Below are positions 705-62,166 of a stretch of DNA of 64,000 bases, piece by piece. The stretch comes from Lentinula raphanica (taxonomy: Eukaryota; Basidiomycota; Agaricomycetes; Agaricales; Omphalotaceae). A program made the position numbers and the translations under genes. The stretch is taken from contig JANVFP010000021.1 in NCBI GenBank assembly GCA_027919835.1, positions 496,001 to 560,000 on the forward strand. The letters run 5' to 3'. Positions within the stretch are counted from its first letter, which is position 1, and the number at the start of each line of letters is the position of its first letter. The notes beneath the pieces are model-generated. The model was given only the letters and a program-made list of their open reading frames with translations. It made no database searches and was not told the DNA's origin.

Positions 705-1177
705 CACTGGAGGGGAATCAGTATTTTACATCTGTAAAACTATCTGCATTATCAAAAATTTTACAACAAATTTCACTGTCCATCTAACCAAGGTTATACA
801 GTGTATAGAACCTCTGTGGAATGGCTTGAGAAAAACCATATTTAACCTACATTATTTCAACTGTAAAATGACATGTAAACTAGTATATATGTCCTGTGTT
901 ATATTGACATTTCTTCAAGTGTTAAACAAAAGGACTTACCGGCCATATTGTCTTTGATATACAATAAATTTCACGAGGCAAATTACCCTCGTTGAATGTC
1001 AGATTTTACGGCTGCGAAAAGAAACGGGCACTGAGCGGGCACTGAGCGGGCACCCATTGGGTAATCGTTGGGTGACCATTGGGATATCAATGGTCATTCA
1101 GGACCTCGAGTTAGCTGAAGGGACGAGCGTCGGCCTCTCTCTCTACCATCAGTCATGATTGCGGCCATTGTTTCTTC
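705..1177 (+). repeat. Left terminal inverted repeat, about 473 bp
   Basis: It aligns over its full length to the reverse complement of 61697-62166, with scattered substitutions and almost no gaps. The first 60 bases are nearly identical. Between 1026 and 1090 there is a cluster of short direct repeats (GCACTGAGCGG twice, then several CATTGGG/GTTGGG units), of the kind that forms subterminal transposase-binding arrays in CACTA elements. Open frames inside it are accidental, because the DNA rather than any protein is conserved in both copies. Confidence 0.85.
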
Positions 1178-1479
1178 TCTCAATAAATGAGTGCAATTCC
1201 AGAACGGATAGAATTGAGTAAACATTTGAGATGTCACAATCATAAGGTATCTGCCAATTGCAATACACTAGAACTTGCTGGCCAAAGGATACGTTAACTT
1301 GAACGGCCTGGAAAGCAAGGCTAACCTCCTATCGTCGTACAACCTTATCTTTATTCTTCGCCCTTCCCGTGATCTACTTGGAGCATTTCCAAGCCAGAAT
1401 ACTCGCCATCTCGTTGTTCTTACAAATCCTGATTCGGTCTGTGCTCAACCCGGAAGCTGAGGCAGTGTTCATAGTATTC
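1178..1479. other. No gene recognised
   Basis: Between the left inverted repeat and the first doubtful coding stretch I see no conserved reading frame, repeat or RNA. A 61-codon plus-strand frame here has no recognisable feature. Confidence 0.4.
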
Positions 1480-2400
1480 CCGTATGGAGTCCCGATGAAG
1501 ACTCAGTGGGCTTGGGAGAAAATGTCATAGAAGAATTCAATCTGTCCTGATTCCTGAACGCAGTGGGAAAAGGAAACATTGAAGGACTACACTCCCCAGA
1601 AGAACTAGATAATTTCGCGACACAATCGATCAACTTGCGAATATCATTCATCTTGTTCCGGCTCGTCAACTCCATCGCATCATCCTCGCATGCACTCAGC
1701 CGAACCGACGCAGGTTCTTGAAAAAAGGCGGGGTTGACTTCAGACGATGACTGGGCTCCTTGGATGATCTCTTGCGGTCTCGGAACATCGCTCACACAAG
1801 CGAGCAATCTGATAACGACTCGGTCTCCATACCATGCTTTTCACAGAGACGTGGAAGTAGGTTGGGTGCAAAGGCGATTGAGATGCGAAAAGAGAAAGGT
1901 ACCAGCGGCTGAAAGACTGGTAGCGGATGATTTTCAAAGGTTGGTGAGAGACAGGGAGGTGAGATTGAGCCATGGCCCAAAGAGGACAAAGTCGTCAGCT
2001 GGGAGGTGTGTTTGTGCCAGTAATGAACGAGGTTGCATATAAGATATATCGAGAGGCTGGAGCACACAATTTTAGAGTTCATCTCAGCATAAGGAGGCCG
2101 TGTTCTGTTTGCAGCACATACCTGCAAATTCGAATTCGGACAACCATCCAGCATGCCTTTGACACAAGTGAGTCCTGGGTGCTTGAGTGATCCATACGCG
2201 TGTCGCGTTGACTAAAGTAGCTTCATTTGACGCACCTACAAGTGCCCGTAGGTCATCGTATACAGCTCCAAAAAATTCTGCCAAACTGACCACAATATTC
2301 CAAGGGCCTTCTGCAACAGCCCTCGACGAGCGACGAGGGCAGTTCTGCAATTCCTCCAACGTAAGTTTGTCATCTGCTTTCCTCAAGTCGGTCTCAGTAC
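1480..2400 (-). other. Possible minus-strand gene, unidentified
   Basis: Several open minus-strand stretches could be spliced together. At 2386-2200 there is a well-composed segment including TLEELQNC and VVSLAEFFGAVYDDLRALVG, and at 1800-1480 a Ser/Glu-rich tail. No family is recognised, no ATG is obvious in the first stretch, and the frames do not join cleanly. It may be a decayed gene. Confidence 0.22.
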
Positions 2401-2813
2401 TAGGCGATATTCCACCGGGACCATCTCTGTTGCTCCATCTTCAGTAACATTTGCATCGTCCGAGCACGACACTGCGCGTTCTCATCCAAGCCTCCCAGAC
2501 GCCTGATACTGACGAACGCTCAGGTGATTCCACATGCTGACACGGCTCACTCTGCATTTGATAACTCCTCTGTAGTCAAAGTGTCTCGGGATAACCACGT
2601 CGTGCATGCAAGTTGATCAACGCGAGATGTCGGAACGAGGAGCGGTTTTCTAACGATCACATCGTGAATTTCCGTTGGCTGACCGCGTTCTGAGTGCTCA
2701 TTTGGATGACATAGCCGCGTAAAGCTGACGAATGGTTCGAAGATGTTGAGCAGAGTAGATGAATAGAGAATTTGTGTCCCTGTGAGGTCAAGCGATATTG
2801 GTATCCTCCGATA

Positions 2814-3026
2814 CTACGTGACGAAAGGAGGAAAACTAGGAGTCGGACATTGAAATTTGAAACCTTGGACAGAAACAGTGAGGTCGTACGAGTTTAGATT
2901 GATGTCGATGTCCTCGATGTCCAGAATACGGACACCAAACTGGTTACTGTGGCGTCCAATTTTTTGGATGACCAAGTCGACTTCGAGAAAAGTAGTATCC
3001 CTGGAGACGTTCGTGATTAATACCAC
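2814..3026 (-). other. Possible terminal exon of an unidentified minus-strand gene
   Basis: The frame reads as a hydrophobic-patterned peptide (for example FGVRILDIEDIDINLN and SYDLTVSVQGF) ending in a stop at 2814. It looks more protein-like than the plus-strand frames over it, but no family is recognised and upstream exons are unclear. It lies head-to-head with the protease gene that follows. Confidence 0.25.
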
Positions 3027-3304
3027 AATTGTTTGGACTCGGTACTCCTCCAGCCTTCAGAAAATTACTGGAGATAACCAAGCTATGGAGATGTGACTCG
3101 GAGCGCTGGCGCTGATGCGTCAACGGTACGGTCAACGCCCTTTTTGTTTATCAAGCGCTCATGTACGTACCTATCTTATCGCTCAGATCTGAGGATTATT
3201 TGCCAACGTCCTGCAACGTCGCCTCTCTTCTTGTCACGACTTGGGCAGCAGGTGTACAGACTCAAGAATACACCTAGTGAGCCTGCTGACATTACTCATC
3301 TCCA

Positions 3305-4919
3305 TTGAAGGGCACTGATGTTTTTGTCACGATGGCTTACTATGATGTGAAGGAAAGATTGGTCGGGACGATTCATCATCCACAGACACAAATGGAATCA
3401 CGAAGCGCCAACGGTGATTACATTGTTCGGTGTTCTCTTGCAATTTTTGATTGGTTTACTATCAGCAGCAGAGGTAATCCTGATATCTGAAGCGGTTCTT
3501 CCACCCCCAGGAATCTTGACTACCTGCCTCAATGATTTGAGCGAAAGCGTCAAACATTGGTTTCTGGAAACCGGATTTCCCTTACCTCGAAGCGAAGCAG
3601 AACTGCCCAATTTCACCGTCGAGGGTTGGCTGGAGAATTTGAATGAAGTTATGACCGCTAAGTCGCAATATCACTGGAAAAACCTCATATCCGGCGACCT
3701 TGAATCGTATCAGTTGATCATCGACGAAAGGGCAAGATTTCGCGACATAGAAGTACACAGAAAACTGCTTCTGTATACGTTTCTCGAAGCCGTGAAATCG
3801 TGCCAATCTGAAGGACACTCGACGTTGGCAGAGATTATTTCCTACCAACATTCTCTATTTCGACGTGCCAGCCTGGTCTTTTTAGCCATGAGCCAGAGTC
3901 TTGAGCGAACAATTAATTCATGGAAAGATATGTACCCGTCAGTAGGAGATGCGTTGTTGAGCAAAGTGCGTGTGTATCAAACCTTTGGAATCTGTTATGT
4001 TGAACGTAAATCATTCAGCGAATAACTGCCCTGCAGGGGGCTGGCAAGGAATACCCGTTTCCGAAGACAACCTGGAATGACGAATATATCATCAATCATA
4101 ATGATCTCGACCGCATGCTGTCCTTGAAATGGCTCAATTCTAATCTCATGAATGTATTCATTTCAAAACTCAACGCCAAATTTTCTCATCCAGACAATCA
4201 ACAATGTGTCGCGTATCTGGATACCAATTTTGCATATCATTACATTCTTCCCGCATCGAAACCACACGACACCCTCAAAAACTCAGAAGGCGAGATCAGA
4301 TCCAAACCATTGAAGGTGGGCATTCGAATTCATCTTAGTATATCACACCAGTACCAAGGACTTGTACTTAGGCCCTCAGACCTCGTTTCGAGAACCGGAA
4401 TATCAGACTGATATTTCCCCTCAACATAAATAATACGCATTGGTTTGTAGGGTCAATCTGCGCGGCCTCGTCAACAATGCAGGTTTTTGACTCATTAGAA
4501 AGAGGGAGTTTAAATACACAAGTCTACCAAACTGCATACGAGGTAAGCTACTTGATCATACCACAATTTCAAGCTGTGTTAAGTTACAAACGATTGAACA
4601 GAACATGCAGCAGGTATGGAAAGTACTTGTGGAGGCATGGTCCGACACTTTAAGCAATCACGAGCAAAGGTGGAAACTTGAAATTCATTCCAAAGTAAGT
4701 ATAGTCTACGGTTCGACACTGCAGCGACTGAGTGTCTATAAGATACCTAGGCAAGTCAACAATTCTGATTGTGGAATTTTCGCAATCATGTACATGTTGC
4801 ATCTGGGATATGGTCCGCACATTAATAATGAACAAGTGCCAGTTTCATATCGACTGCCCCCTCAGTCGAAAAATTTGGCAGGTTTGCGCTTACTCTTATT
4901 GGAGGAACTTGGGTTATGA
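3305..4919 (+). CDS. Ulp1-like cysteine protease (peptidase C48), SUMO-protease type
   Basis: C48 proteases cleave SUMO or related proteins from their targets. Exons that join in phase are 3472-3965, 4037-4315, 4372-4542 and 4602-4919. An upstream exon ending about 3414 joins in frame but its start (about 3305) is uncertain. The catalytic domain begins with LKWLNSNLMNVFISKL. It then shows the His of NINNTHWF, the Asp of MQVFDSL and the active-site Cys in QVNNSDCGIFA, so His, Asp, Gln and Cys are all present. About 180 residues of unknown function precede the domain. Ulp1-like proteases are a known accessory of CACTA/CMC and KDZ transposons, which fits its place near the left end of the element. 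No frameshift or internal stop was found. Confidence 0.8.
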
Positions 4920-5339: not shown

Positions 5340-6210
5340 TATGAAGCCATTGTGGCACCAACGGAAAAGCCCTGCAGCAGAGTATAACGAGCAAACATCG
5401 CGGAGCGTCTCTGGCCACCACCAAAACTGCCACTTATGGGTGCTGCACCATACGTTCCTCGCGAATTCGGTTTCCTCTTCATGGGGGTAAAGTCGAGTAC
5501 CTTCTGAGCCTGTTCGAGCCTTTGGTCAACGATAGAATCAAAGTCCTGCGGACGACGACCCATAACTACAAGAGGGAGGCCTGAGTTGTCCTTTGTAATG
5601 TTTGTATGCCCAGCACGCAAGCGATAAGGCCATCTTAGAGAACATCTGACCAAGGACAGTGCCAGAACCATACATAATCTCGAAGAAGTCGAGAGCAGCA
5701 GGAGGTTGTATTCACAGGATTAGCCCCACCTTAATTTTGCATAAGTTCAAGAATATCACTTGCATGGAATCGTGGCTTAACCAAGTGTTGGAACTGCCAG
5801 TATCGACTATCAATCCAAAGAGTTCCAGTCAGAAAGAGTACAAGCATCGAAGAACGTTAATGCCTACAGTTCTTTCCGCCCACAACCGAGTTGATCGTGA
5901 AGGTCACAATCTGGTCGGTAAGACTAGCAGAGGGAGGGGCCGAAGACGCAAGCCCCTTCGTCCGCGTTTTGATCTCACCTTGCGTAATACTGACAGCACC
6001 GTTCCTCGGCTCATGGACGAGTGTATTAACCAATATCTGCGATGAGCACAAAGAGTTGAGAGAGAGTGAGTCGACTCTCGCCGAGTCTGACGTTTGCAAT
6101 TGCACCGTGCTATCACTGCCACGGTGAGCATAAGATACGCGATGGCTGCCCACTGACCAGTACATGTACACTACGCGTGGTGAGTATCGTTTCGGCAACT
6201 GAGGCATCTA
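5340..6210 (-). pseudogene. Decayed A1 aspartic protease (polyporopepsin-like) fragment
   Basis: Pepsin-family enzymes use two DTG/DSG motifs. On the minus strand at about 5812-5770 the frame reads LIVDTGSSNTWL, the textbook first active-site motif. About 110 bp downstream (about 5680-5640) EIMYGSGTVLGQ matches the flap region that follows it in fungal polyporopepsins. Upstream segments such as VTFTINSVVGG fit the start of the mature enzyme. These pieces are in different frames and cannot be joined by clean introns, and the second catalytic Asp and C-terminal half are absent. The open frame at 5671-5339 beyond them does not look like protease sequence. I read this as a broken host gene. Confidence 0.5.
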
Positions 6211-6340
6211 AGCACTTACATCGGTGCTGGCCAGCTTATGAAGTATACTGAAGAAGACAACATCCATACAATATATGATCGTTTTACATGACTGAGCGAT
6301 AAGGCTGAACGTCTAGATACCCATTCTGCGTGTCTTCAAT

Positions 6341-7114
6341 TTAGAGCTGACCTTCAGCTAAGCCAATGTCTGCACGTTCTTCCGTCTCTTCCAAAAGTTC
6401 CTCTCTAGCTTGGGGGACTCTAGCATCTTTATGCTCGAGGACCATGCGTGCTTCCTAAGCCACAATCAGTGAATGTCGAGGTAAGTGAAAAATCAGATAC
6501 CGTACCCGGAGTCGTTTTGCACGAAGAACAGGCCAGATGAATAGAACCATGGTGCTCACAGTGACCACACACATGATCAGCGAAACTCTGAATTTCATGA
6601 GAGAACCATCGGAAGGCAGTGCGGGAGTGATCGATACAGGCGATGCCATTGTTGAAGAGGGTGTACTCAGGTCAGCCATGAGACTGCCGCTGAGAGAAGA
6701 TGTGACGCTTTCGGATGCACTCGCTGGGGTCAAAGATGAACGCGCCACTGTAATCGGTCCATCAAAGAAATCGACGAAGGCCTGAAACATCAGGTGAGTC
6801 GTGCGGTGATCGGTGGCAGTACTCGACGAGGACGGTATGATTGTCGAGGTCCCCTCAAGAAGTTTGACAAAGGATGGCGACACGGGGTGAGCTGTGGGAG
6901 TCCCAGCCACATGATTCGGGACGGGCAGATTATTCATAGTCAAGATTGCTGGTGTTGGTGTAGTCAAGGAAGGAGATGTTTGTTGTGATTCTTGAAGACT
7001 TTTCGCGATGGTCTCCAATATTTCTAAAATTTCAGTGAGTGGTGCTTTATATAGTCAATCGCAGGGCTTACGGGACAAAAACGTGTAATCCGATATGCAC
7101 AGGTTTGAGAACAT
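6341..7114 (-). CDS. Single-pass membrane protein with Ser/Thr-rich ectodomain, 224 aa
   Basis: Three exons join in phase: 7114-7072, 7023-6506 and 6454-6341, with introns of 48 and 51 bp. The start ATG at 7114 gives MFSNLCISDYTF. Residues about 20-150 are rich in Ser, Thr and Pro. One transmembrane helix follows (VSLIMCVVTVSTMVLFIW), then a basic stop-transfer RAKRLR and a charged tail rich in Glu ending AEGQL. There is no clear signal peptide, so topology is uncertain. A TATA-like element (TTTATATAG on the minus strand, about 7193-7201) lies about 80 bp upstream. I do not recognise a family; layout resembles small fungal sensor-like proteins, but that is only a resemblance. The frame is intact. 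Confidence 0.6.
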
Positions 7115-7513: not shown

Positions 7514-9211
7514 ATGAATCAAAGACACTCTCCCGTCAAAACTAATGCAACGGTAGCTCTCAATTTCTGGTGTACATGTACGATCGCGACATCTGCTCAT
7601 GCTGGTCATCTATAGAAACTGAAGGTAGTGGCTCAGGAGTCGCCTGCCACCCACCCAATGGTATTGGAACTTGGACACCGTATTATTGCACTTCAGAACG
7701 AAGTCAAGCTTAGAGATGTGGCTTTGCTAAAGGTTCAGGATGACTGGAAGAACAAGCAGCAGGAACTGGACAGGACTATCGAAGAGGTTTTGGTAATGCT
7801 TGATCTGCTCTCGTATGCTGGCGCTTTCTCATCTTTGCAGGACTGGGTCCCTCGCGCCATCATCGATGCTCGAAGAAAGCACGATTACACCTACCGCTTG
7901 CTACTCCAGACGAGCTCTCAACTCATGTCTTATCAGCGGCAACTGAAAATTCCAATGTCGCCAGGCTTTGCGGGAGAGCTGAAAGAGTGTTCCCCAAACG
8001 ACCTTATCAAGATCCATGCTGAAGCTGGTGATGTCAGTGCCGTACTACGTCAGGAGTTGGCAGATTCCGAGGTGAAAAACTTATCTTTCTCTTCCCTGCA
8101 ATGCTTTTGTAAATGCTTTATATCCAGCAAGCTCATGAACAGGAGGTCGCCAAACTCAACGAAAGAGTGGCTTATCTGGAAGCCAGGCTTGCAAATGCAA
8201 AATCGGAGGGCGAATGCGCTCGACTCGAAATAGGCTCAGTGAGTAGAATGCCGCTGTCTGGAGCAATTACCGATTAGAATTACTAAGGGAAGCGAATGTG
8301 ACGAGAGCGAGATTAACTATTTAGAAGACGGAAATGCTCAACTCGAATCAGGCTCAGTGAGGAATGCTCTATGTGTTAATATGACAAGATCTGACAAACA
8401 TTGCAATCACTATAGGTATCAGTATTGGGACGCATGTCTTCACGGTCATCTGCAGCGATAGAAAAGGTATACGCTGTGCGTGTTGTCTCTGATCTTCGTC
8501 TATCCCAATTGCTGACTTCATTGTCAGCAGCCCCAAAGAGGAGAGAACAACGATATGCCCTCTACCACACTCGTAAATGAGGTCTGTGGCAACGAATAGT
8601 CGAATTGGTGTCGCGCTGATTAAGCCTTTTAGGGTCGCCCTCATGTCCCCGATCTCTCGTCCTACCATCTTCCTTTTTCCCCAGAAGCATTGGCTGTCAA
8701 GTGGTTCAAAGATGCTTTCGATTTTTTGAACATCGACCTTGGAACGTCCTTCGCTACCTTGGTAGCCTGTTGGCTCAAATTCGAGGGCCTTTATGGATGG
8801 AAATCGAGCAGAAACGCGCTTTCGAATGTCAATCGCCCCGAAGAAGTCACTAAATGGATTCGATATGGGCGTTATACTAAGATCGAAATCGTCATTGCAC
8901 CTTCACAAATCGAGGAATTCGCGGAAAGAATGTGGCTGTGGTGGGTGCATCTTCAGCCAGAATGGCGAGAACTTGGGCAAGATTTGCGGCTCTTACCAGT
9001 CGATCAATTTGGAGACGATTGGAGGTCGCTTGACATTCATGGTATCAACGGTTGGTTGAGTCTGCTCGCTGGTCTCAGATGGTGGGGTGAGAGTCTTGCA
9101 CAGCTTGACAGCTCTGAACGAAACAGCCGAAGTAACGATTGGTTGGAGCTCATAGCGGACATGTGCAAAATGCTCGAGGGTTTGATTATGTACAAACAAA
9201 AGACGATGTAG
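7514..9211 (+). CDS. Orphan Agaricomycete family protein, copy 1: coiled coil plus W-rich domain, 436 aa
   Basis: Eight exons join in phase: 7514-7552, 7616-7792, 7841-8071, 8128-8238, 8288-8356, 8416-8466, 8528-8581 and 8633-9211. The N terminus is MNQRHSPVK. Residues about 25-75 form a heptad-rich coiled coil, a second helical repeat lies in exon 4, and the last exon encodes a conserved 190-residue domain. Landmarks there are VNRPEEVTKWIRYGR, WWVHLQPEWR and GINGWLSLLAGLRWW. I recognise this domain as a family of unknown function that recurs many times in mushroom genomes. Its paralog is at 57210-59251 in inverted orientation, with the same final-exon length of 579 nt. Exon 5 here looks like a fusion of two exons that remain separate in the paralog. 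No function is assigned. Confidence 0.8.
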
Positions 9212-10089
9212 TTCCTGTAGATTTCGTTCAAGTTATCTGAGACTTTGGAGTCCTCTGCATCACAATCATGAGACGCGATTACATACCTTTACAGATTTCA
9301 GTCGACTCCTCGCATGCCCAGCTTTGCAAGACATCAGCACAGCCAATGAACCTTTCCGAGCTTGCGCCGAAGGTCAGAAGGCAGCCTTGACAAACTTAAT
9401 GACCTATCCGAGCTCGAGGAGATAGAGGGATTAGAACTGCCTGCTGAAAAATGTATCTGCCGTGGAGGCTAACAGTGCTACACTAAGTGTTCACTCTGTA
9501 CCCGAATAAATGTTGTTTGATATCCTCACCCTACATTAGCTTGGCACTTGCCCCAAACCCTTCCACCAGAAAGTCGATGAATTCTAGGTCTCTGGAGGCA
9601 GTGTCGTCTGAAAACCTGTGCATGAAATAAAAGATCGTCTTGAGTCGTCTTGATGGCGCTGCTTGCTTCAAGTAAGTACGGAATGAATGAATGAATCAGA
9701 CCGGTTGTGAAAGATATCGATAAGACTGGGGAGATCAATACCAGATGGTATAAAATACTTGACCGACGATATCGGTGATGCGATGGCAAATGGTTTGGAT
9801 GATGATCCACTGAGCATTCGGACAAACGGCTTCGAAGATGATTCATTCTGGATTTGCTGCTCTTTGCATTGATTATACATAGACCGTTACTCGTCCGATA
9901 AGGCTTCATCCCCCAGAGCTGGACTCTATCCTGAAACACCGAGAAATTCGTCTTTTGGGACGGACAAGGAATGTTTCAGACATGAACGATGCTTCACTAC
10001 TGTGTGCTGGGCACATATTCGAGTGTAATAAGTTATGTTCGAGATAGATTGTACAACTGTTGCTTCCGGACTAGATAGGCAGATGCTGG
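9212..10089. other. No clear gene; doubtful minus-strand stretch
   Basis: Open minus-strand frames at 9526-9939 and 9668-9880 have no recognisable family. They lie downstream of the acetyltransferase relic on the same strand and may be its decayed 3' part or unrelated sequence. Nothing else is seen here. Confidence 0.3.
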
Positions 10090-10509: not shown

Positions 10510-12081
10510 TCAAGAAACCCACCTCTTCCACTTCACAGCCATCGAATTGTCATAATCGCAATGACACCTCCCTCGTTCATATGCAGGGGTAGAAGGATCT
10601 GGACACTGTTCCCAGCCGGTATGTGCGTACGCGATGTCGTTAAAATGATGTATGCGGTCTCGGTCGAGAAGAAGAGAGATGGTGATGCCGTGCACTGGTG
10701 CGTCACCCCAGCACTATTAGAGTAAAAGGTGTACAAGATAGATAGCGGATATCAGAAGCAAGAGAACATCAGCACAGTTTCACCAAATTGTTTGCAATCG
10801 AACGCACCTCATAATAAAACCCTCCCGCAGCTTTGAGATGCTCGAAGTAATTACTATATCCTTCTGATCCACGGAAAAAGTCGAGGTCGCCGATTTCGAA
10901 ATTGGTCCAATCTATGTAGATGGACGATGAGTACAGATTACTCGGGTATATGGACGTATAATGATTACGCACATGTACAGCTTGTCCATGTATTCCCCCC
11001 GTCCTCTGAGGCGAAACACATAGCATTATCAGGATGAAGATAATGTGGATTTTGATTGAAGAACTCTGCCGAGGAACAGTCAGACAGGAGCGAAGAGAAG
11101 CGGGTCGTTTAAACATACCCATTGAAGTATCCCAGTAGGTGCAGTCTCTTTCTGTTCCGGAAGGGAAGTCGTGAAGCCTAGGAGTCGTTAAGAAGCTTCG
11201 AGTAATTCCAGCAAAAGTGTCGACCATGAGCCTTATTATTGTCTTCCACGTACAAGAATGGACCGTATTCAATCTCGCAGCAATAGTTTATGTCCGGTCT
11301 ACGCGTCGTAGTTGTCAGTGAGAGCAGGAAACGACAACCGATTTTGCTCACTCTACACGCCAGTAATACTTGAAATTTTGCAGTAATGGTTGTCTATAGA
11401 AGAATCCAGAATAGAAACGATACATGTTGCAATACCTTGAGCAGCGAAGATTAACATGCAGCCATAACCGCAGATACACCTGGTACTTACGATACACTGT
11501 CTTTGGTAAACGATGGATCCGTCAACATACAGAGATTCTATTTGCCAGAATAATGAACATACCAGTATAAAAAAGACGCCTCTAATCTTAGACTTGCCTT
11601 GATCGCTCTCTCTTCATCTATAAAATCTGGTTGTGCCCACTGCTCGCGAGGGATTTGACCATAATAGGTTTTAGCGGAGGTTACGGTGCATCTATGTGGT
11701 ATGCAAATGTGAATGAGCATTGTGAAGGAAGCCGAGAACAAAGTACCCACCTGATAAGCTCTTCCGTGAAGAGCTCGTCGTTCAGAAAGACCCATGGAAT
11801 GTCTATCTGAGTCTCTTTTGAACCTTCCTTCGACCTGTTTCATACCATGCACCACCCCTGCTAGATCGCTAGTTCGCGCCAGGGTGAGAAAGGCAACATT
11901 GGCGTTGCGTGAGTAATAAGTATGTGGGTCGAGGTGTACTGTGTTTACACGATAGATTCGAATATGAGGGTGGTGGTTCAACTTTTGGAGAGTAAGAGTT
12001 GCTTCCAGTGAGATGGAGATGAGAATAGAGGTGAGTATGAGACCATAGAAGATATTGGCGTTAGAGCAAATCAATGAGCAT
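10510..12081 (-). pseudogene. GT15 alpha-1,2-mannosyltransferase (KRE2/MNT1 family), frameshifted
   Basis: GT15 enzymes are Golgi type II membrane proteins that extend O- and N-linked mannans. The order of landmarks is complete: an N-terminal hydrophobic anchor, NANVAFLTLARTSDL, then IPWVFLND, YYGQIPREQW, YRFYSGFFYRQPLL and YYWRVE. These are followed by CCEIEYGPFLYVEDNN, the signature NFEIGDLDFF, GGFYYE, WGDAPVHGITISLLL and HHFNDIAYAHTGWEQCP. Many short introns are kept, so this is a DNA-level copy. Two breaks are visible. The anchor frame has no ATG, and a one-base shift near 11815 separates the first segment from IPWVFLND. Everything downstream splices in phase. It is either a young pseudogene or a gene with sequence errors. 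Confidence 0.75.
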
Positions 12082-12624
12082 TACGATTGGGCGTAGAGAG
12101 TTTTTAGTCAACGTTGACACTAATGGTCGAAACCTTCGTTGATGGTCGACGGTCGATGGTCATGAAGAAGCAGTGGGCGTCAAATTTCCGAGCATGTGCA
12201 TCAGCGCTTGAAAACACCCAAACTTTGCATCGGACCAACCCAAGCCAATTATGACTCCAGTTCCTTTTTCAAGCTATTCGATCCGGCCTGGTCATTTAAT
12301 CAATCTGTCACGTATAGGATAGCGAAAGAACAACCACGCCTGCCGAAAACAGTCGGAATGATGACCTCGAAAAACGGGAGAGTCTAGATATCAGTCAAGG
12401 AGAAGTTGGAGAAACACTTCCTCCGATGTATCTCTCCAACTTTCTAACGAAGCATCTGCTGAGTTGGGGTGTAGAGAGTCGAGGCGCGCTTATCGTATAC
12501 TTCTGATATCTATTTTACATCTTATCTGTTTGTCGAATCAGGAATATCACCCGTTCTACCTTCGCCAAAACCAAAGACTCTGAAATTATTGGAGAAACTT
12601 GCTCTTGGTCTTCAAGACTTCATC

Positions 12625-49735: not shown

Positions 49736-49921
49736 GAAAGTAAAGTGCGAAAGACGAAGTGAACGAAAATTTGAGATTTTCGGGCATTGCGGTCACGTGT
49801 GCTGTTTGACGCGCCGATTGCACACGCAAATTGAATTCTGAACCACAACATTGCAACTTCAAGGATAACAGTCCACGGTACTCTATCATCATGGGCGCAA
49901 TGCTAGAAACTTCATCTAGAA

Positions 49922-50270
49922 TATGGATCCGGAGGAGGATAGAGGCCGAAGGCAGTCGAGATATGCCTTCTTCATCTTCTGTTCCCAACTTCGATGACTG
50001 CAAAAATTTCATTTTCAAGCGACGGACCCCAAACCAGATCGCGATGACCACGAATCAGACGAAAAACCAAGCTTCGAGCGCATGGGCTCTCCTATTCGTT
50101 TAACTCCAGCGGCTTCCACTCATCATGCATCATTTATTCGTGCAACCTCTAGTACCTTCAGCACTACACGTTTTGCCAATTCGCTCGTCGCGATTCGGTC
50201 CCTACCTTCCCCGCAACCGCTGGACACAGTCTCCGTTTCCAGAAACTCCCGCGTATGTTTCCTTGTACAT
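49922..50270 (+). other. Possible 5' fragment of an unidentified gene divergent from NOP14
   Basis: From ATG 49922 a frame begins MDPEEDRGRRQSRY. After a change of frame, SDEKPSFERMGSPIRLTPAA and STTRFANSLVAIRSLPSPQP follow, stopping being protein-like near the RING gene. It may be a captured gene end truncated at the edge of the right host-gene block. No family is recognised. Confidence 0.25.
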
Positions 50271-50455: not shown

Positions 50456-51430
50456 ATGGCACCTGAACGCGCTCGTAAAACTTCCCGTCGTCCAACCAAC
50501 CAACAGGAAAATCCGCCTGGGCACAGTTATACCATGGCTTTACGTAGTGCGACGAGGAAATCCCAGGACGTCAATGCCACTAGTACTATCACTTCCAAAC
50601 CTACCACAGCGATCAGCACTCCTACTCCTGCCATTACTGCCACAGCGGCGGGAGAATCCAATTTGCCAGTGTTCAATAGTTCCGTCGACCTGTTCAGCTA
50701 TGATCTCCCGCTTGAAGCGCGCATGCTTTCGAATTTTGCGCCTCTGGGTGCTGTGGTTGCACCGGGGGGCTCCTCTTTATCCGAGCCTGACCCATCCATC
50801 GATGTGCCTGATCCTACATCCCACACGGACACCAATGCATATAGGCACGATTTTCCATCGAAGCCACTCATTCCAGTCGAGCTTCCCGCCACAGATCCTT
50901 ACATAAAGAGATTGGAAATGTTTTCTGCATCGAGCGCGCATCTCTTCGACAAACAGGAAGCTTCAATCAAGTCCACAAATGAGTACATTGAATTATTGAC
51001 ACAGCTAAGTATTGTGAGTCTTCACTGTCTGACTGATCTCAATCGATCTCTGCCGGCTAAATCATCATCTCTTAGGATTACAAGGAAATCCTAGACTCGA
51101 AGCAAGCCATAGAACGAATCGATCATAGTTGTTGGTCTTGCAAGGAACTTGCGTGGAATCCTCACGTGTACGCTTTTTATCTTGCTGTGTCTCCAAATTT
51201 TGATCTATCATAGTTTGCGATGTGGGCACGTCGTTTGCGCACGATGCATCACCGATGCTCGTCGTCTCGAGATCGAGACGGGAAAGACATGCCAATGCCC
51301 AACGTGCAGGGTTCCTGTTCGACATAAACCAATTCCATCTGTCGCCATCCAAACTACGATTGAAAGGATAGCCTTCGAGCTAGATGTTACGCCACCCGCT
51401 CACCAAACCCTCGAATGGCCTGATCTTTGA
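50456..51430 (+). CDS. RING-finger protein, copy 2, 288 aa
   Basis: Three exons join in phase: 50456-51013, 51076-51167 and 51214-51430. The start is MAPERARKTSRR. A Ser/Thr/Pro-rich region is followed by a helix (SSAHLFDKQEASIKSTNEYI) and a C-terminal RING with CWSC, HVLRCGHVVCARCI and CPTC, then a conserved end VPVRHKPIPSVAIQTTIERI. This end matches the paralog at 36712-37899 (CAKPVHSVTIEAG). The middle exon is 92 nt in both and both introns fall at the same codons, so the genes are duplicates. Probable E3 ubiquitin ligase; substrate unknown. It is the first intact gene after the block of broken host genes. Confidence 0.75.
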
Positions 51431-52738: not shown

Positions 52739-55700
52739 CTAGAATTTATTCCTTGAGGTGAAGAATTTGGTCAATATCATGAAAGGTATCAACTTGAATG
52801 TACCTACTCGCGATAAGTTCACCGCAATCGATATCCCCCCTGTAAGGTCCCATCGTGCTACATGTCCAAGCACGCATGACCAGTCCACGATTGTGAGATC
52901 TCCTGAAAAGGACTTCGCAATCATTTTTGCTTCAAACCCGCCAGACCACCAACTCTTGAACGGGTCTTGCCAAAATCTTCCTTCTGGGCGATATTCTAGA
53001 TTCTGCCGGATTGCACACTGGATCGGACCATCTTCTCGTTGGAAAATGTATTTGATTTGTCCAACTTTCCATTCTGTCTCCTTGTCCAAGCAAAAACAAA
53101 CATAACTATTACCTGGCCCGGGTACTCCCATAACCGTGAAAGATTGAGACTGAGTCTCTATGCGTGTGTAGCATTTGACACGCCGATGATCATCTTTGTT
53201 GAGCTTCTGAGCAAGATCGCGAGGTATTTGTTTTGAAGTTGGTGTAAGCTTCGGTGAGCAATATTCGTTCTGAATAGAGAAGTGATAAGCTTTGTTCAAT
53301 ATATCGTGGCATTGCGTCAACAGCGGCGAACAATCCGAGCGCATGAGCCACCGATGAGCTCCGACTCCCTTCCCGTAAGAATGAAGAAGAGTGATCTCGA
53401 ATTGCCCTGATTCTGGAGTTAGCAAAAACCGCATAAAAGACTGAGTACCCACCTGGCTTATGGTTTGTCAAGGTTTTCTGGAAACTTCCAATGAGACGCT
53501 CTCCAGAGAAGCACCAGAAATTTCGCACAGCACTGAAAAGGCGCATGAAGTCGTAAACGTGAAACCCAACATGGTGTGATGGCACACCAAACCCCGGGAA
53601 GACCCTCTTTAAACCTTCGATATGAGCTTTGTAATGCTGAAGGAATGACTCTCTTCGTTGCAGGGGCATTGTTTGTTTTGCCATCAGAATTGACGCACAC
53701 GTCAAGTGCATGGCGGTGTTAAGGACGTCTTCCATTTCATTGTAGTTATCGGCGCGAAGAGGTGAATCTTTCGTCCACAAACTCAAGAGTGCAAGCGGGA
53801 GGTAAAGGCAGCTCAGCAAACGCCAGTTATCCGCCTTGAGTGTCCCTCCAGATTTCAGACAACAATCAAATGGAGGCTTTGAAATCCAAGAGGGAACGAC
53901 CACGTCACGGATGCACCTATGAACCTGGGTAAGTACATCACCGCTGCGAATCGCTGGCCAAGTCAGAGGTGCGACGGGCTTGTCAAGACGCTGAGAAACT
54001 CCTATCAGGATCAGATGGTAGTGGTTTAGTTCACGCACGCACCCAGTGAACGAGTTGCTCGATCAGCATTGCCTTTGTGGTACTTCCGGATGCAGGCTTG
54101 AGGGGAATCCGGTTGATGTCTAGGCATACATATTTAAGGGCATCTAGTGTTGAAGTTTCCAGGCTCTTCTCTAGTTTTTCCTGGTCATTCAGAGGTTGAC
54201 GTAGGTAACGATGAACATGGCCAACACGAACGGCAGACTGATAAGTCATCTCGCTAGCTAATTCCTTCATGGCGGCTTCACGGTCTTCAGCCGCAAGTTG
54301 GCTGTATTGAACATCTCCGCTGGATCCGAAAATCAAGGCAGGGGGTGCCCACGGGGCTATTGGATTGGAACGCTCTTTCATAGAAAAGTGCGGCCAGACA
54401 AACCTCCCGGTGTCATGGATGTCATTGGTGCGCTTGGGAGTCATTCAGATCAGAGTTTCAGACAGGATGCAGCTATTGACTCACCCAAGATAGGAGCGAT
54501 TCGGCCATTGCTTTCCTAGTCACTGATTTACTGGATATCTTCGTGTCTTGGCTATTATGTTGGCTGGGCCCGATCCAGAGGTCATTGCAGATATAGAACA
54601 GCGAGTGCCAACGAAGATCATTCAGCTGCTTGAGTAGCTTCGTGGTGTCCGAACTTCCTGAAGGTCGACGTTGAGAAAGAAGTTGATGTCCTTTGATAAC
54701 GTCTCCCAAAGCCCTGATATCGTTCTCCATAGTGGGTATCAGCCAATCATAGATGCGCGACATCCTCAATTGCTTTTCAGTAATTGTCAAATCATCCCAC
54801 TCCAGGTGAGTAAGAAATTCCTGGGCAGTGCGTGACTGGGTCATTTCCTTCAGACTGGGGCGCGGAGGAGGTGAAAACTCGTGATGGAAGGCAACGTCCG
54901 ACGTATGAGGTGGTGATATAGTAGGGCTGAGGGTGGTTAAGCCCAGTGCATTACGGATGAAGAGATGGATGATGCGATGGTAGAAGGCATGCATGGGGTC
55001 TGCAATGATCTGTAAGGAGAATTTGAAGTATGGTAAAATCTCCAGCGTGGTACATCTCGTGCCGTAGTAATGCTCAATGGTTTCTCGGTCTCTTGCTGTT
55101 TGAGCCGCTCTCCATTTCTGCATTCCTTCTCGTAAGAAGCCGTCATCGACGCAGATCCAATTCTCAAAGTCCGTTCGTAAGATGGCTTCCTGGTGGAAGT
55201 TGTTGCAGGTGAAACAATCATGATGTGAATTTACATCCAAGAGTCCAGCGTGTGGTCGTGCCGCCTTTAAGTCCGAGCAAGAACCCGCAAGCATGCAACG
55301 AAAAGTAGTTTGTTCTCCAGGAATACTCGGAGTGTTAGATGAAGGGCTTCCAAGACATCTAATGCCACGCGTGTAAGCTTTCTCTAGATCTGAAATCAAC
55401 GGCTCCAACAAATGAGCTAGTTGAGCGTCAGGCGATGATGGCTCTTTGGGACCCCGCCAAAACCCAGGGATATATACGTTGCTAATATTGTCACGGAGAT
55501 GGAAGGGTAGATTGAGACATTTCAGTGAAGCAATTCCAGTGGATCGGTGTTTTCCTCTTCCTGTTGTTCCTTCTGAGCTGAAGAAATCAACATGGAGCAG
55601 AAAGAAGAAACGACCTTCTTCGCCCCCATCTACGAACAGCTTCCCATCTGGACCGAGCAACATGTGATAGATGTCACCGTCCCAGGTGGACACCTTATCT

Positions 55701-57005
55701 GCTGGGGGAACAGATCTGTTGCAAACTTCGTCACAAAAGCGCTTGGCGTATTGTTGGACACCAGGTTGTGCGACAAACTGAGAAAACCACTGAGGGAATG
55801 GGTAATACTCGTACCCCTTTAGCGGTTTCCCCAGTTCGTTCAAGAGCGGCGTATCGCATAGAGAATCTGGCGGGGATCGGTTCGTGCAAGTGGCTGGATA
55901 AGTCGCAATTTCGGGTTTCGAAGAATATTGAGGCTCATAGAGAAAATTGCAAGTAGGGCAAACGGCATAGGTAGTGGTCTCGATCCCAAGATTGAATCGA
56001 TTTTCCACCGTTTCGACCTGAGAGGGAATAGCTTCAAGGGCACGCTCTTGTAGAAGAGTGGCTTGGCCACCGAGAGCAGCCACAGCCGAGCCATACAGGC
56101 GCATAACTTGTAACGTAGCATTAGCGCTGAGCTCACTTGCACCAGAAAAAATCCGTTGTGATAGCACGAGACTATAAGCCATCAGAGTCGGTACAAGGTA
56201 AGTTTTACTTGGGTCGACGAATGCCGATGCTATAGAACCTAGCATCATTATAACATATTCTACAATCAAGTCATTCTCGCTTACCGTTATCAATTTGGAT
56301 TGGAGAGTTATCGGGATAGAGAGAACGCCAATTCTTCAAACAAGATTCGACTTCTCGTACCATTGCCGCAGCATCCTCCAAGATCGCTGTTGCCTCTGAT
56401 CGAGTGATACGTTGCGCCTCTTCTTTGTCGGCCAAGAATCTTGCTTCAACTGAACACAACGTCGAGTGAATTTGAAGGCGAGTTTCTGAATGTGAGATGT
56501 TTTTGAGGAGCAGAATACACTCTTCGAGGTCTTTTTCAGCTGGCTAGCTCTGAAACACGCCTGAAGGCCCTCGCGTTTCATGAATTTAGGGACAATGATT
56601 CTACTGGAACCCTCTGTATTGACATAGTCAGACGATACATGATCAACCTAATGATTAATATGAGTGTTGTTTCATTTTCTCGGGAGGGTGGGCGATAACT
56701 ACCATATCATCAATGACTCCACGAGTGAACCGAGACCAATCTGTCCCTCCTGAAATCATAGCCGAAGTAAGGAGATCATCTCTGTCCACAAGCATGTTGT
56801 CTACATTGTGGTCAACAGATTTGGGCGAGGAAGGTAAACTGGACATAGCAGTGCGAGAGGAAACCGTAGCTAGATCAAGCTCGTCTCGTGAACAAGTTTC
56901 ATTTTCGACCACAGAGGTTTGAGTAGATGTTTCAAAGGACATGCATTGATACTCGTGCTGAAGGAGTTCCAAATGCGTTCTCTTGCGTTTTCCCTTGGAA
57001 TACAT
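52739..57005 (-). CDS. Tnp2/Plavaka-type transposase of the CACTA/CMC superfamily
   Basis: The enzyme cuts and reinserts the element by a DDE-type reaction at its terminal repeats. Exons are 57005-56703, one about 56570-56280, then 56238-54485, 54432-54043, 54001-53453 and 53406-52739; the joins after the second exon were checked and are in phase, while the 5' splicing is uncertain. The core shows FFLLHVDFFSSEGTTGRG, LKCLNLPFHLRDNISNVYIP, SDLKAARPHAGLLDVNSHHD, CFTC, IIADPMHAFYHRI, GTLKADNWRLLSCLYLPL and FSGERLIGSFQK. The Asp residues in HVDFF, SDLK and ADPMH are the likely metal ligands by analogy. The usual N-terminal Cys-rich segment of Plavaka proteins was not seen. No stop or frameshift occurs in more than 3 kb of coding sequence. 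Confidence 0.85.
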
Positions 57006-57209
57006 CGTTCGAGTTCAAGGTTCAAGCTAAGGTTCAAGCCTTAGCGCGCGCTACTCGCGCAGTTTTCTCATACTTATTCGCCGACCGGCAAAATTTCTAC
57101 GGACGTCCGGATGTCCATATTATCGAGAGGCGTCTAGCTGCAATTGTTTATGTAGATCCTGTTCAGCATCAATCATACGCATACGCCTTCAGATTCCCTT
57201 CCACATAAG

Positions 57210-59251
57210 CTACATCTTCTTCCGCTTGTACTTGATCAAACCAAGAAGCATTCTGGACATATCTTCCAAGAGTTCCAACCAATCGTGATCTCCGCCATTT
57301 TGCTCAAGGCTCTTCTCCTGCGCAAGGCTCTCACCCCACCATCGAAGGCCAGCCAACAGACTCAGCCAACCGTTGATACCATGAATGTCCAAAGACTTCC
57401 AATCGTCTCCAAAATGCTCGACTGGTACGAGTCGCAGATCGTTCTCGAGTTTTCGCCATTCTGGCTGAAGTTGAACCCACCACAACTGCATTCTTGCTGC
57501 AAATCCGTCGATTTGGGAAGGAGAGATGACAATTTTGATCCTAGCGTATCGCCCGTATCGAATCCATTTACTGACTTCTTCAGGGCGATTGACACTCGAG
57601 AGCGCATGTTTGCTTGATTTCCATCCATTGATGCGTTCGAAATCAGACCAGCGATCTACCAACGTAGCGAAGGGACTCCCCAGGTCTATGTTCAAAAACT
57701 CGAAGGCTTCCTTGAACCACTTGACATCCGTTGCGTCTGGAGGATATCGAGGAAGGTAAAGCGAAGGAGGAGGGACGTGAGGATAACTCTGACCATCTAA
57801 TCAGTGGAACATCAATTCGACCGATTATCACCACGAACCTCATTCACGAGTGTCATAGAGGGCGAATTTTTGCCGCTTTCTCCTATTTCGGGCTGCTGAT
57901 AACAGTGAAGTGACTGAGTGAGATGGATGAATATAAGGCATAACAGGATAAAACGTACTGCGCGCGCCTTGTCTCCCTTCGTAGGGAACTGCGAAAGAGA
58001 GGTGTTTCCAAGTGCTGATACCTACAATGAGAGTGATGTTGAACTGATATCTATGGAATTACGCCTGGACATAACGAAGTACCTGGTCGTTATCACGGTC
58101 AGAATTATTCTCCTGCATGCGTAAGCCATGGAAGAGATCACAGAAAAAGAGACTTGAAGACTTACCAAGTCGACAGGAAAAGATCTGCAAGCTCCACCGT
58201 TCTCGTCGTATTCACCTTCCTTGTTGATTCTAGTCAGCAATTGGTTGGATAGACGGCGTTCTCCTCACCGAGCCTGAATCAAGCTGAGCGCGTTCGTTTT
58301 CTGATTTCGCAAGTCCGCTTTCTAAGAAAGCCACTCGTTCCTTGAGTTTGGCAACATCTTGTTCATAGGCTTCCTGCATACTGCATAAGCCACGAATGCG
58401 GTTACAGAAAACTGAAGACTTACCAGGTCAATAGAGGACGATCTGTAGCCACTTTCGTTTTCGTCGTATTCCCCTCCCTTGCTGATGTTAGTGAATGATC
58501 GGTTGGCCAAAAAACTATCTCCTTACCGAGCCTGATACAAGTTTTGTGCGCCCGTTTTCTAAATCCGCAAGCCCACCTTCTAAGAAAGCCACTCGTTCGT
58601 TGAGTTCGGCGACGACTCGTTCGTGAGTTTCCTGCCAGATGCAAAGAATTTACATTTGCAGACGGGTTCGTGGAAAGGGAACTCACCTTAGAGATCAATA
58701 GTTCCTGAAGCAACATCGCACTGACATCACTAACTTTGGCGTTGATATTGTGCGGAGAACATCCTTCAAGTTCATGATTTACAAAACTCAAGGACACTGG
58801 AATCTTCAATTGGCGTTGGCAACGCATGAGTTGAAAGCTCATTTGACGCAGCAGGCGGTAAGTATGATCATGCTTCGCTTGAACATCAGTGACAGCCTTA
58901 GGAACCCAGTTCTAGGAGAATATGAGAAGCGGCAAGATACGAGAGGAGAAAGAAACGCGCCAAGACTCGTTCAATATCCTTGTCCAGTTCCTGCTGCTTC
59001 GTATTCGAGTCGTCTTGTGCCTTTTGCAAAACTACGTCTCGACACTCTACTTCTTTCTGAAGTGAAGCGATTTGCCTTTCGAGGTCTAAAATCGTTGACT
59101 GGACGGTTGATGAGTCCGGATTCTGTGCCACTACCCTCAATTTCTAATATACAGCTGGCGTGAACAGATGACCGAACAGATTTCGAATATTAGAACTTAC
59201 TGTGTGTCTCTCTGTGGCATGGGCTTTAACAGGAGAGCGACTGCGTTTCAT
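57210..59251 (-). CDS. Orphan Agaricomycete family protein, copy 2: coiled coil plus W-rich domain, 501 aa
   Basis: Eleven exons join in phase: 59251-59201, 59143-58961, 58911-58687, 58631-58527, 58477-58424, 58373-58269, 58219-58166, 58112-58083, 58021-57959, 57895-57839 and 57788-57210. It starts MKRSRSPVKAHATERH and ends YKRKKM. The last exon (579 nt) matches copy 1 closely (VNRPEEVSKWIRYGR, WWVQLQPEWR, GINGWLSLLAGLRWW). Exons 4-5 and 6-7 are a tandem duplication encoding helical repeats (ERVAFLEGGLADLENGR and ERVAFLESGLAKSENER) each followed by an EYDEN peptide. Intron 2 starts with GC instead of GT. It lies about 200 bp upstream of the transposase start, on the same strand, and mirrors copy 1 at the other end of the element. 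Function unknown. Confidence 0.8.
58166..58631 (-). repeat. Tandem exon-pair duplication inside the orphan gene
   Basis: Exons 4+5 (58631-58424) and 6+7 (58373-58166) each span exactly 208 bp with identical exon sizes of 105 and 54 nt. The encoded peptides are clearly homologous (GGEYDENESGYRSSSIDL against EGEYDENGGACRSFPVDL). Phase 0 borders keep the frame. Confidence 0.85.
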
Positions 59252-59359: not shown

Positions 59360-60134
59360 GCCCATTCATCTCTGACAATCAATTTAATAATTAGAACAAT
59401 AGTTCCGGGAGCTGTCATCGTATAAAAAGAGAAACACTCATCTACATATCTGTACTTCATTGATCACACAAAAGGGTCAAGTCGTCTAGTCGTATAACCC
59501 TCGTAGTAGTACCAGGATCAAGGATGTGTAGAGTTGTGCTGACATTGCGTAATAGTGATGACGTAGCTCATTTGTGATAAGTTATGACATTGATTGATTT
59601 TTTCTCTCATATGTGTTCGAACTTCGCCCCGAGTTCGCCCGATTCTTCACGTTGATGAGCCTGTTTCGAAATACGCTTGTTCTGTCACGCACGGTACGAT
59701 TTGCAGGATTTGCCAAAACATCCGTTCGAAAACACTTGTTGTCAGCAACGAGTCGTATCCTTCAAGCATTCTACTATGGGGTAAAAGGTGATCCGGATCC
59801 AGACCATGTCGAGGAGAATTTTTCAAAAAGGACCCTCCTAACCTCCTGCCACACCCCCTCCAGCTATCTGGACCTCCAGTTCTGAATCCGAATTTCGAGG
59901 TCGGCTCAAGATACTTATACAGTTTGCACATGCACCAATTCTCGGGAGCCGTGACTACGAAGGATCCTAGTGTATATAATTACATCCCAGTAGCTCACCA
60001 GAGCTTACCAGTCTTCCTAACAGAGGCCGAATCGAGATCACACCTGGTCAGAGTCGGAAATTCGGGGAGCTGGGGCTGACTTAGCATAGATTGTACATAG
60101 AATGACGAAGTATTCAACAAGGATGCTTTTCGAT
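59360..60134. other. Mostly non-coding; one small open frame
   Basis: An ATG-initiated plus frame at 59655-59885 encodes 76 residues starting MSLFRNTLVLSRTVRFAGFA, basic and hydroxylated like a mitochondrial presequence, but no mature domain follows. It may be a leftover first exon. Nothing else is recognised. Confidence 0.3.
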
Positions 60135-60760
60135 TCAAATAATGAACGCAAATTTAATAGCGCAGGATCGAACCGTTTTGTGGTTCAAATCGAAAGTGGT
60201 GTAATAACTTGTCAGGAGGTCAAACGGGCAGTGGGTTGTCACTATTGCCTCATAGCCTCCGATGTATCCCATTCGGATCCCTCGACGGCCTTCTTGAGTC
60301 TCAAGTTCGATTAGTCGTTTCTGAGACTTCTGTCTCCAGTGTTCCCCGACCTGGTATGTTCTTGACAAATCATCAGGATGCGCTCCAATATGGCTGCACA
60401 AAGAGGGGTGAACAGAGGAGGGCGATCGGGGAGGAAGATCGAAGGTAGGCTCATTGTCGTTGAACTTCACCAGCTCCCACCTCATGTATTGCCAGGCAGA
60501 GGAGCTGTAAGTGTAAGAGAAAGAAACGAGGGAATGGTCTTCTGTTCCGCAACAGTCATCCCGCAATCTGGATGGTGGCTCTTCTTGGGCAATGTCGATG
60601 AAGAGAATGAGACAGGGTAACATATCGTGTTGTTAAGCGCGTTTCCTAGTACTGAGCTGAAGTCGACAAGGCGATAGGATACATCCCGTGGTTGAACTTG
60701 AGCAAGAAGGGCGCGCGAGTACGGTTTCAAGGGGTGAGATAATATAACAACCTCCTTCAC
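60135..60760 (-). other. Unidentified minus-strand open frames
   Basis: Two overlapping minus frames (60623-60135 and 60760-60482) have protein-like composition, for example MRWELVKFNDNEPTFDLPP and RLIELETQEGRRGIRMGYIG. No family is recognised and no clean gene structure is found; a degenerate gene is possible. Confidence 0.25.
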
Positions 60761-61696
60761 TCAGCAAAACACCGGGATAGTATATCACTAGAAGTAAGAG
60801 TTATACAACCAGAAGAGAGACTGTATACGAAAAAGACGTACCTTCATCAAACACCTGTTACCCTCTTCACCGGCCAAGATCGGTCCCCGCATCGAGAATC
60901 GACACACCCGTATCGACGATAGTTGAAAGTATGGCCTGCTTGGCTATCTCGATGATGCTTACTACTAAAGCGCAACCGCTTGCGATGTATCGCCACCGAT
61001 AAAGTTTCGACGAGATTTGTTAGAGAGCTTTCAACTTGGTGTTGTTAGGTATGAAGGAAAAGGGGATTGAAAGGTAGGGAGTGGGAGAGAGAGGGAAGAT
61101 AGGGACTAACCGTGGGGTATAGAGGACAGACGTGACGATAAGGGAAGGAAAGGAGGGTTCATGATTCCATATAGTTGCTCGTTACCTCATATCCTTCCTC
61201 ACGTCCACTCCCCACGACTCATCCTCCAAGACACGTCCGCCAGTCTATCGACAGTGACCGCATCATGTCTATCGACAGTGACCGCATGCGAGAAAGCAGC
61301 TCCCTGCCGGTATAACAGCCCATGCGTCTAGGCTTGACGTATCTCCTCCTCGGTGAAACTGCAGAGCTGTACTAAGGTACGTGAGCTGAAAGGTTCTATG
61401 GGCAGTTTCAAATACAAGGTCGTCCGTGCCATTCTGCATGTACGCAGCGAAGACAAAGTCGATGCCATGCTGATGAGCTCGATGATCAACTGTACTTATT
61501 ATGTTTGTAAGATACTTGGGAGGTTCGATATAATTGAACCACACGTACATATTGCATCCGGATCCATGGTCTGAAGAAGCAAAGACAGTGCCTGTATATG
61601 ATACATTTGGCAAGAATTTCCAATGTTATCCTATTGAAGGTATAAATGATACCTTGGAATGGCAGATGAACGTTAACTTGCAGGAGAGGTGTCTTG
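60761..61696. other. Spacer before the right inverted repeat
   Basis: No convincing gene. A short direct repeat, TATCGACAGTGACCGCAT, occurs at about 61246 and again at 61269. Confidence 0.35.
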
Positions 61697-62166
61697 AAGA
61701 AACAATGTCCGAAATCGTGACTGATATCAGAAAGAGGCCGACACTCGTCCCCTCAGCTCGCTCAAGGTACTGAACGACCATTGATACCCCAATGGTCACC
61801 CAATGGTTACCCAATGAGCACCCGCTGAGTGCCCATTCAGCGCCCGTTTCTTTTCGCAGCCGTAAAATCTGATATTTAACTTCGGTAAATAGTCTTGTAA
61901 AATTTATTATATATCGAAGGCAATACGGCCTGTAAGTCCTTTTGTTTAACACTTGAAGAAATAACAATACAACACAGGACATTGATAGTAATTTACTTTT
62001 CATTTTACGGTTGAAATATTGTTGGTCAAATATAGTTTTTTGCAAACCATTTTACAGAGGTTCTATACATTGTATAACCATAGTTAGATGGACAGCAAAA
62101 TTTCTTGCAAAATTTTTGATAATGCAGATAGTTTTACAGATGTAAAATACTCATTCCCTTCCAGTG
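61697..62166 (-). repeat. Right terminal inverted repeat, about 470 bp
   Basis: Reverse-complement partner of 705-1177. The outer end is CCAGTG at 62161-62166. The subterminal CATTGGG-type repeats recur at about 61775-61850. Divergence between the two ends is spread as point differences, suggesting an insertion that is not brand new or ends that evolve independently. Confidence 0.85.

Follow-up and report, generated by a model that had tools for sequence, protein, structure and literature searches.

The stretch of Lentinula raphanica DNA analysed here (the window; 64,000 nt, positions 496,001 to 560,000 of contig JANVFP010000021.1) holds an element of 61,462 bp, from position 705 to position 62166, that encloses a transposase gene, a set of further genes and long stretches resembling host loci (Table 1). 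We refer to contigs by number, so that the window element is C21 (496705–558166) and its relatives elsewhere in the genome are C36, C14, C7 and C28. The inverted ends of C21 share 405 of 473 aligned positions (86%, 2 gaps; 705–1177 against 61696–62166, blastn between the initial 3 kb and the final 4 kb), and the homology begins exactly at CACTGG (705) and finishes exactly at CCAGTG (62166). The triplet GAA lies immediately outside both tips, and no longer flank match was found when lengths of 1–11 bases were tested. Only two inverted pairs of at least 40 bp (seed 14) occur in the window, the terminal pair and 8639–9221 with 57200–57782, the second of which is an inverted gene duplicate. The initial annotation of this DNA had described inverted ends of about 470 bp with these tips and a GAA duplication; both were borne out, although the stretch conserved over all ten family ends is about 440 bp, not 470 bp. 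We conclude that the segment is very probably one of five giant CACTA/EnSpm-type elements in this genome, and that it likely moved as a single unit.

Table 1 Features of the C21 element and its borders, in window coordinates
Feature	Position	Strand	Remarks
Left 3-bp target duplication, GAA	702–704		Flank comparison
Left terminal inverted repeat	705–1177	+	About 440 bp conserved in family; blastn, genome search
Core gene	3115–4411	+	Rough model; no Pfam match in exons scanned
Core gene	5731–7114	-	Rough model; no Pfam match in exon scanned
Core gene	7658–9211	+	Inverted paralogue of 57210–58842
Glycolipid 2-alpha-mannosyltransferase-like exons	10769–12074	-	Glyco_transf_15, over cut-off
Copy of host phytochrome-like locus C25:235371-230512	12558–17390	+	91.7% identity, introns included
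Core gene	19438–20408	+	Divergent neighbour and paralogue of partner gene
Core partner gene	20534–23171	-	Rough model, last two exons best supported; relatives near Tnp2 genes genome-wide
Core gene, coiled-coil-like	23459–26212	-	Judged from sequence, no tool
Core open reading frame	30908–31461	-	No Pfam match
Core WD40 / beta-propeller gene	31925–33677	+	Pfam WD40 6.8e-07, over cut-off
Core RING-finger gene 1 (RING1)	36598–37899	+	Best RING model 1.9e-06, below cut-off; PF00097 just over its cut-off
Block matching host C3:976919-980397	38343–40507		78–86%; first 169 bases on other strand
Block matching host C21:126664-129303	40545–43015		73–82%
Block matching host C25:169753-173303	43019–46340		75–80%
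Block matching host C19:963887-968711	46341–50188		83–84%
Nop14-like fragment within C19-matching block	49479–50051	-	Just below Pfam cut-off
Core RING-finger gene 2 (RING2)	50456–51430	+	RING 6.6e-05, below curated cut-offs
Transposase, EnSpm/CMC type	52739–56640	-	1200-aa six-exon rough model; gene model, motifs
Core gene	57210–58842	-	Inverted paralogue of 7658–9211
Right terminal inverted repeat	61697–62166	-	blastn, genome search
Right 3-bp target duplication, GAA	62167–62169		Flank comparison

The genome searched was a single assembly of 49.06 Mb in 75 contigs. The left end as query gave 10 matches and the right end gave the same 10, all of which fall into five convergent pairs: C21 (61,462 bp, flank GAA), C36 433697–489389 (55,693 bp, flank ACT), C14 111144–167325 (56,182 bp, flank AGT), C7 696854–800304 (103,451 bp, flank AAT) and C28 489121–581322 (92.2 kb, flank TCA). 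A perfect 3-bp flank duplication is present in 5/5 pairs, with five different triplets, for which the chance expectation is about 1e-9 at the base composition of the window, and the CACTGG..CCAGTG tips are present at 10/10 ends. The initial annotation had pointed to such a genome search, and to single ends scattered without partners as a pattern that would speak against movement as one unit; the search found further copies whose ends match but whose contents differ, and no unpaired end at the sensitivity used. Judged by their ends, duplications and transposase, the five elements of 55–103 kb are a giant CACTA/EnSpm family with captured cargo.

The C36 element sits in repeated sequence, and its flanks, joined through one ACT, were used as a genome query. 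Scoring 40 of 969 first-look candidates gave 81 rows, 40 of which span the junction (query 1–600, 3–600 or 1–598); one half-length match and 40 short fragments make up the remainder. Many of the 40 junction-spanning rows represent the paired arms of a single inverted-repeat element, and one row is the second arm, next to C36 itself. The best empty-site copy among the candidates scored, C41:184834–185433, is ungapped, identical at 594 of 600 positions and has a single ACT. Base-level reading covered this copy and two arms at the C7 right flank, where the repeat hosting the C36 insertion is also present; these arms are ungapped around the C36 junction and gapped elsewhere. The C36 empty site is paralogous, not allelic. 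Since the joined flanks match uninterrupted copies of the host repeat, we conclude that the 55.7 kb of C36 went in as one piece. The earlier proposal that the whole 61 kb moves as a unit thus holds for the sister C36, whereas for the window copy we infer it. No second copy spanning the junction was found in the genome for C7 or C28. Mechanistically, the transposase, acting in cis or provided in trans, would bind the ~440-bp ends, with cutting at CACTGG/CCAGTG and insertion with a 3-bp stagger.

The transposase gene of the window includes a stop-free open reading frame (ORF) of 606 amino acids (aa; 54473–56293, minus strand), and the residues typical of the CMC clade are, in the full model, D302, D419, C426/C429, H501, H939/H943 and E963. 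Among 7996 candidates scored, eleven relatives were found, nine of them with fungal names; by local alignment those from Lentinula reach 76%, followed by Collybiopsis, Schizophyllum and Antrodiella. When the model and its 11 relatives are aligned, the first D and H501 are present in 12/12 and the second D in 11/12 (N in P0005), both C of the motif are present in 12/12 (one residue further apart in P0004), and HxxxH and E are present in 8/9 of those with letters there (P0011 not aligning), three shorter proteins stopping before this point. The closest places in the genome are in C28, C14, C36 and C7, at 91–94%, and the next best is at 73%; the C7 match covers 176 residues only. The Tnp2-type transposase originally read from the window is thus supported, by a DDE with 2C+3H motif and by 91–94% relatives in the sister elements. 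Structure prediction for the main exon gave a mean pLDDT (predicted local distance difference test score) of 45, and a PDB sequence search with the alignment gave no match.

Full-length content was compared for C21, C36, C14 and C7, and C28 was compared by matches to single genes; the Pfam scan covered part of the ORFs and models rather than all six frames. C21, C36 and C14 have about a dozen genes in common, in shuffled order, and 29,553 of the 61,462 bp of the window element align with C36 or C14, in blocks that differ in order and orientation. The shared set consists of the transposase, two RING proteins, a WD40 protein, an inverted paralogue pair, and a partner gene with its divergent paralogue; apart from the RING, WD40 and transposase genes, none of the core genes scanned matched a Pfam family. 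C28 has matches to the transposase, the partner and RING1. Ratios of non-synonymous to synonymous substitution (dN/dS) against C36/C14, which are exon estimates with no test against 1, are for the most part far below 1, namely 0.04–0.27 for the transposase, 0.10–0.14 for the partner, 0.12–0.15 for the WD40 gene, 0.12–0.36 for RING1, 0.21–0.53 for RING2 and 0.45–0.58 for the coiled-coil-like gene, which contains a direct repeat of about 0.6 kb (23953–25671). Rfam and tRNA scans of the window, and NCBIfam on 8 ORFs, gave nothing. The partner, RING and WD40 proteins probably aid mobility or shield the element from the host.

The association between transposase and partner extends beyond the five elements. 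We counted 43 Tnp2 places in the genome, from 44 rows with the second piece of a C25 gene left out, and 41 partner rows, own divergent paralogues included. A partner relative lies within 40 kb of 24/43 Tnp2 places, against about 3 expected from a random-placement formula (not a shuffle), and 36/41 partner rows have a Tnp2 place within the same distance. Four of the 24 places are giant elements themselves and a fifth is inside C28. Sister transposases at 63–73% are found at C53:116948, C17:516573 and C25:396426, each with a partner relative 9–12 kb away and none with a match to the family ends; these loci are possibly further giant families with other ends.

Host-like DNA makes up a separate part of the interior. 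Window positions 37910–50220 are a patchwork in which about 11.6 of 12.3 kb (94%) are tiled by four host regions at 73–86% identity; each block keeps one order and strand, except at the start of the C3 block (Table 1), and the joins between blocks leave 37, 3 and 0 bases. Parts of the patchwork belong to gene families, as weaker rows in C51, C57, C9, C11 and others indicate. C28 holds a version of the first (C3) block, at 74–90%, adjoining its RING1 gene. The phytochrome-like match runs to the end of the compared stretch and may extend further; its label comes from PAS_2, which is over the cut-off at the host locus (2.1e-10) and below it in the window copy, and there is a weak sub-threshold HATPase_c match at 17198–17578. 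In the window copy, exon 4 is disrupted by three frameshifting indels, whereas its chromosomal counterpart stays open over 619 aa. Substitutions between the two number 37, 16 and 83 by codon position, and much of the divergence therefore arose while at least one of the two copies was under coding constraint. The mannosyltransferase-like stretch has no blastn match in C36 or C14 and is likely a captured host gene; the Nop14-like fragment is likewise of a host type. The gene types and the broken copy suggest that the host was the source and the element the recipient. The initial label of a cargo-carrying transposon fits the host-like patchwork, which is cargo proper, but much of the interior is a gene set common to the elements rather than loose cargo.

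In CACTA/EnSpm elements, subterminal short repeats bind a TnpA-like protein. A few repeated motifs were seen inside the family end, with no control run, and the partner gene is no more than a candidate for a TnpA-like protein. Between the two ends of the same element, differences amount to 2.3, 4.3, 8.4, 11.3 and 15.3% in columns 1–60, 61–120, 121–222, 223–330 and 331–440, respectively; between elements the same bins give 6.9, 9.0, 17.5, 13.3 and 15.2%. The tip-ward likeness of paired ends reflects in part plain tip conservation. Private variants common to both ends number 21 in C14, five in C7, one each in C36 and C21 and none in C28; ends of different elements have at most five in common (C14_L with C28_L), such that only C14 clearly stands out. 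The two ends of C21, and likewise those of C28, are less like one another than like ends of other elements. The left end of C7 is like C7_R at 221/222 positions in columns 1–222 and like C14_R at 213/215 in columns 223–440. This mosaic, with its sharp switch near column 222, indicates that elements exchange sequence at their ends; conversion from one end to the other, together with end swapping, is a possible explanation for the switch and for the inward divergence.

Swapped ends fit a model for capture by Pack-CACTA elements in which a hybrid draws its two ends from two neighbouring elements and retains the intervening DNA (PMC13317346). Host DNA likely entered the giant elements by a similar transduplication, whereby a pair of adjacent copies, each with a terminal deletion complementary to the other's, would become one hybrid element that holds on to the host DNA between them. 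Capture may instead have taken another route, such as gap repair. The resemblance to Pack-CACTA lies in host DNA, including gene fragments, between CACTA ends, and the capture model as published would account for the swapped ends. However, Pack-TYPE elements are described as non-autonomous plant elements (PMC8903248), whereas here kilobase host blocks stand beside a shared core and a transposase that has a stop-free ORF in the window.

Several observations weigh against reading C21 as a member of a giant CACTA/EnSpm family that moves as a unit. The gene models are rough ones, built from genomic sequence alone. On the window exon, Pfam Transposase_21 (PF02992) scores 12.3 bits against a cut-off of 28.6, the spliced model has no PF02992 match in the Pfam scan, and only 2/12 aligned members match at E 0.01; more distant relatives in the same genome exceed the cut-off. 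The C7 transposase lacks its N-terminal half (before residue 430 of the 606-aa exon ORF) and lies beside another transposable element, those of C14 and C28 have one in-frame TGA each in the matched exon, and three core exons are interrupted by one stop in C36 or C14. Of the core genes, C7 has distant versions of a few only (28–57% aa), and dN/dS reaches 0.67 for the gene at 3115–4411 (against C36). No empty site was found for C21, or for C14, the flanks of both being single-copy in the genome. Parts of the C14 interior recur, at 99% identity but lacking terminal repeats, at C33:57855–64000 and C50:234178–237132, with no transposase or partner row on either contig; pieces have therefore also spread in some other way.

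One alternative is a non-autonomous giant moved in trans by another CACTA, its interior genes being passive, an account that overlaps with our own as regards movement in trans. Besides the Tnp2 rows of the five elements themselves the genome has 39 others, C7 carries a truncated transposase, and trans mobilisation of giant EnSpm and KDZ (Kyakuja-Dileera-Zisupton) copies has been proposed in Ectocarpus (PMC12477816). However, one kind of transposase is present in all five elements and nowhere else above 73%, the interior genes have dN/dS below 1, and every end copy found belongs to one of the five pairs, with the result that smaller elements sharing these ends were not seen. We consider passive movement of this kind unlikely, though not negligible. 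A chance arrangement, in which two small CACTA elements or solo ends flank 60 kb of host DNA that never moved as one, would agree with window ends that are only 86% alike and with an interior much of which matches host loci. Ten convergently paired ends with matching flanks in every pair, and the same gene set in three elements, argue strongly against it, and for C36 it is contradicted by the paralogous uninterrupted target; we regard such an arrangement as very improbable.

The size, the long inverted ends and the multi-gene set of proteins without assigned families would also suit an integrated DNA virus, or a virus-transposon fusion of Teratorn or Polinton type, using a CACTA transposase. 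Teratorn is likewise a giant element of a cut-and-paste superfamily, but is described as a piggyBac-herpesvirus fusion, and the ORFs and models scanned with Pfam, which are not every ORF, include no viral genes: no capsid, polymerase, packaging ATPase or protease. The sole virus-named match, to UL42 (0.0012, sub-threshold, probably chance), is in a 266-aa ORF outside the element (63042–63842, minus strand), the transposase exon had no match in one scan of viral contigs, and long stretches match host loci, introns included. We regard a viral origin, too, as very improbable.

Among fungi, giant mobile elements that carry genes are nearly always taken to mean Starships. A Starship would share with this family its size, a mobility gene and variable cargo, and Starships are reported in the basidiomycete Tremella fuciformis, one with terminal inverted repeats (PMC13066641), but Starships move by a tyrosine-recombinase captain, for which the partial scan of ORFs gave no match, and each of the five elements has a DDE transposase, which leaves this reading with next to no credibility. 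The initial annotation had held that a giant basidiomycete element of this kind would be new and unrelated in mechanism to the Starships of Pezizomycotina; the difference in mechanism stands, whereas the restriction of Starships to Pezizomycotina does not, given the Tremella fuciformis report. The novelty consequently lies in DDE/CACTA machinery at this size.

Among described DNA transposons, the closest likeness is to CACTA/EnSpm elements of the CMC/CMCT clade, fungal EnSpm among them, for which the account available gives CAC..GTG tips, 3-bp duplications and a DDE transposase whose second D and E enclose C(2)C and H(3-4)H (PMC12730594), features that the present family has in its tips, its target duplications and its transposase. 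It differs from known CACTA/EnSpm elements in its length, its dozen or so shared genes and its ~440-bp inverted ends. Plavaka and KDZ elements are also fungal DNA transposons with accessory genes, and Plavaka shares the C2C/H motif; however, Plavaka tips are given as TGT..ACA with 2 bp or CATCA..TGATG with 2–3 bp, and Zisupton duplications as 8 bp (PMC12730594), in contrast to CACTGG with 3 bp here. In the sources available, giant EnSpm/CACTA elements measure 16–20 kb in the red alga Chondrus (PMC6431247), a soybean CACTA element 20.5 kb (PMC2613891) and EnSpm at most 15.2 kb in Ectocarpus (PMC12477816), so that the five elements are about 2.7–5 times the size of the largest found in print. 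No CACTA/EnSpm of 55–103 kb was found among the papers listed by searches of the published literature, whose coverage of subscription papers and preprints was incomplete.

On balance we favour the view that mushrooms have their own class of 50–100 kb cargo elements built on a CACTA/DDE transposase. Such elements would carry a conserved set of genes that serve the element itself (transposase, TnpA-like partner, two RING proteins and WD40), stitch kilobase host blocks end to end and trade ends with sister elements, within a wider clade that has about twenty Tnp2-plus-partner loci in this genome. DNA transposition reportedly becomes less efficient once cargo exceeds 6 kb, although artificial constructs of 100–200 kb have been moved (PMC6431247); a natural DDE-moved family of up to 103 kb would, if true, lie far beyond that limit, and basidiomycetes would gain a second route for shuffling host loci. 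Because likely source loci, junctions and swapped ends sit in one assembly, gene capture becomes testable.

Further observations concern the two largest elements. Within C28, positions 554363–566959 contain a second, diverged Tnp2 (40%, three TGA) and partner-like genes, possibly a nested sister element. A nested second element had also been suspected in C7 from an internal 71% inverted pair, and was rejected since the ends of that pair do not, by eye, resemble transposon termini. The C7 interior has three related inverted-repeat stretches of about 3 kb (708576–711723, 754349–757236 and 795980–799392), likely transposable elements, one of which sits right at the break of the C7 transposase. 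Lastly, tblastx of the flanks showed that the C7 and C28 elements both adjoin related, acidic-looking coding sequence.

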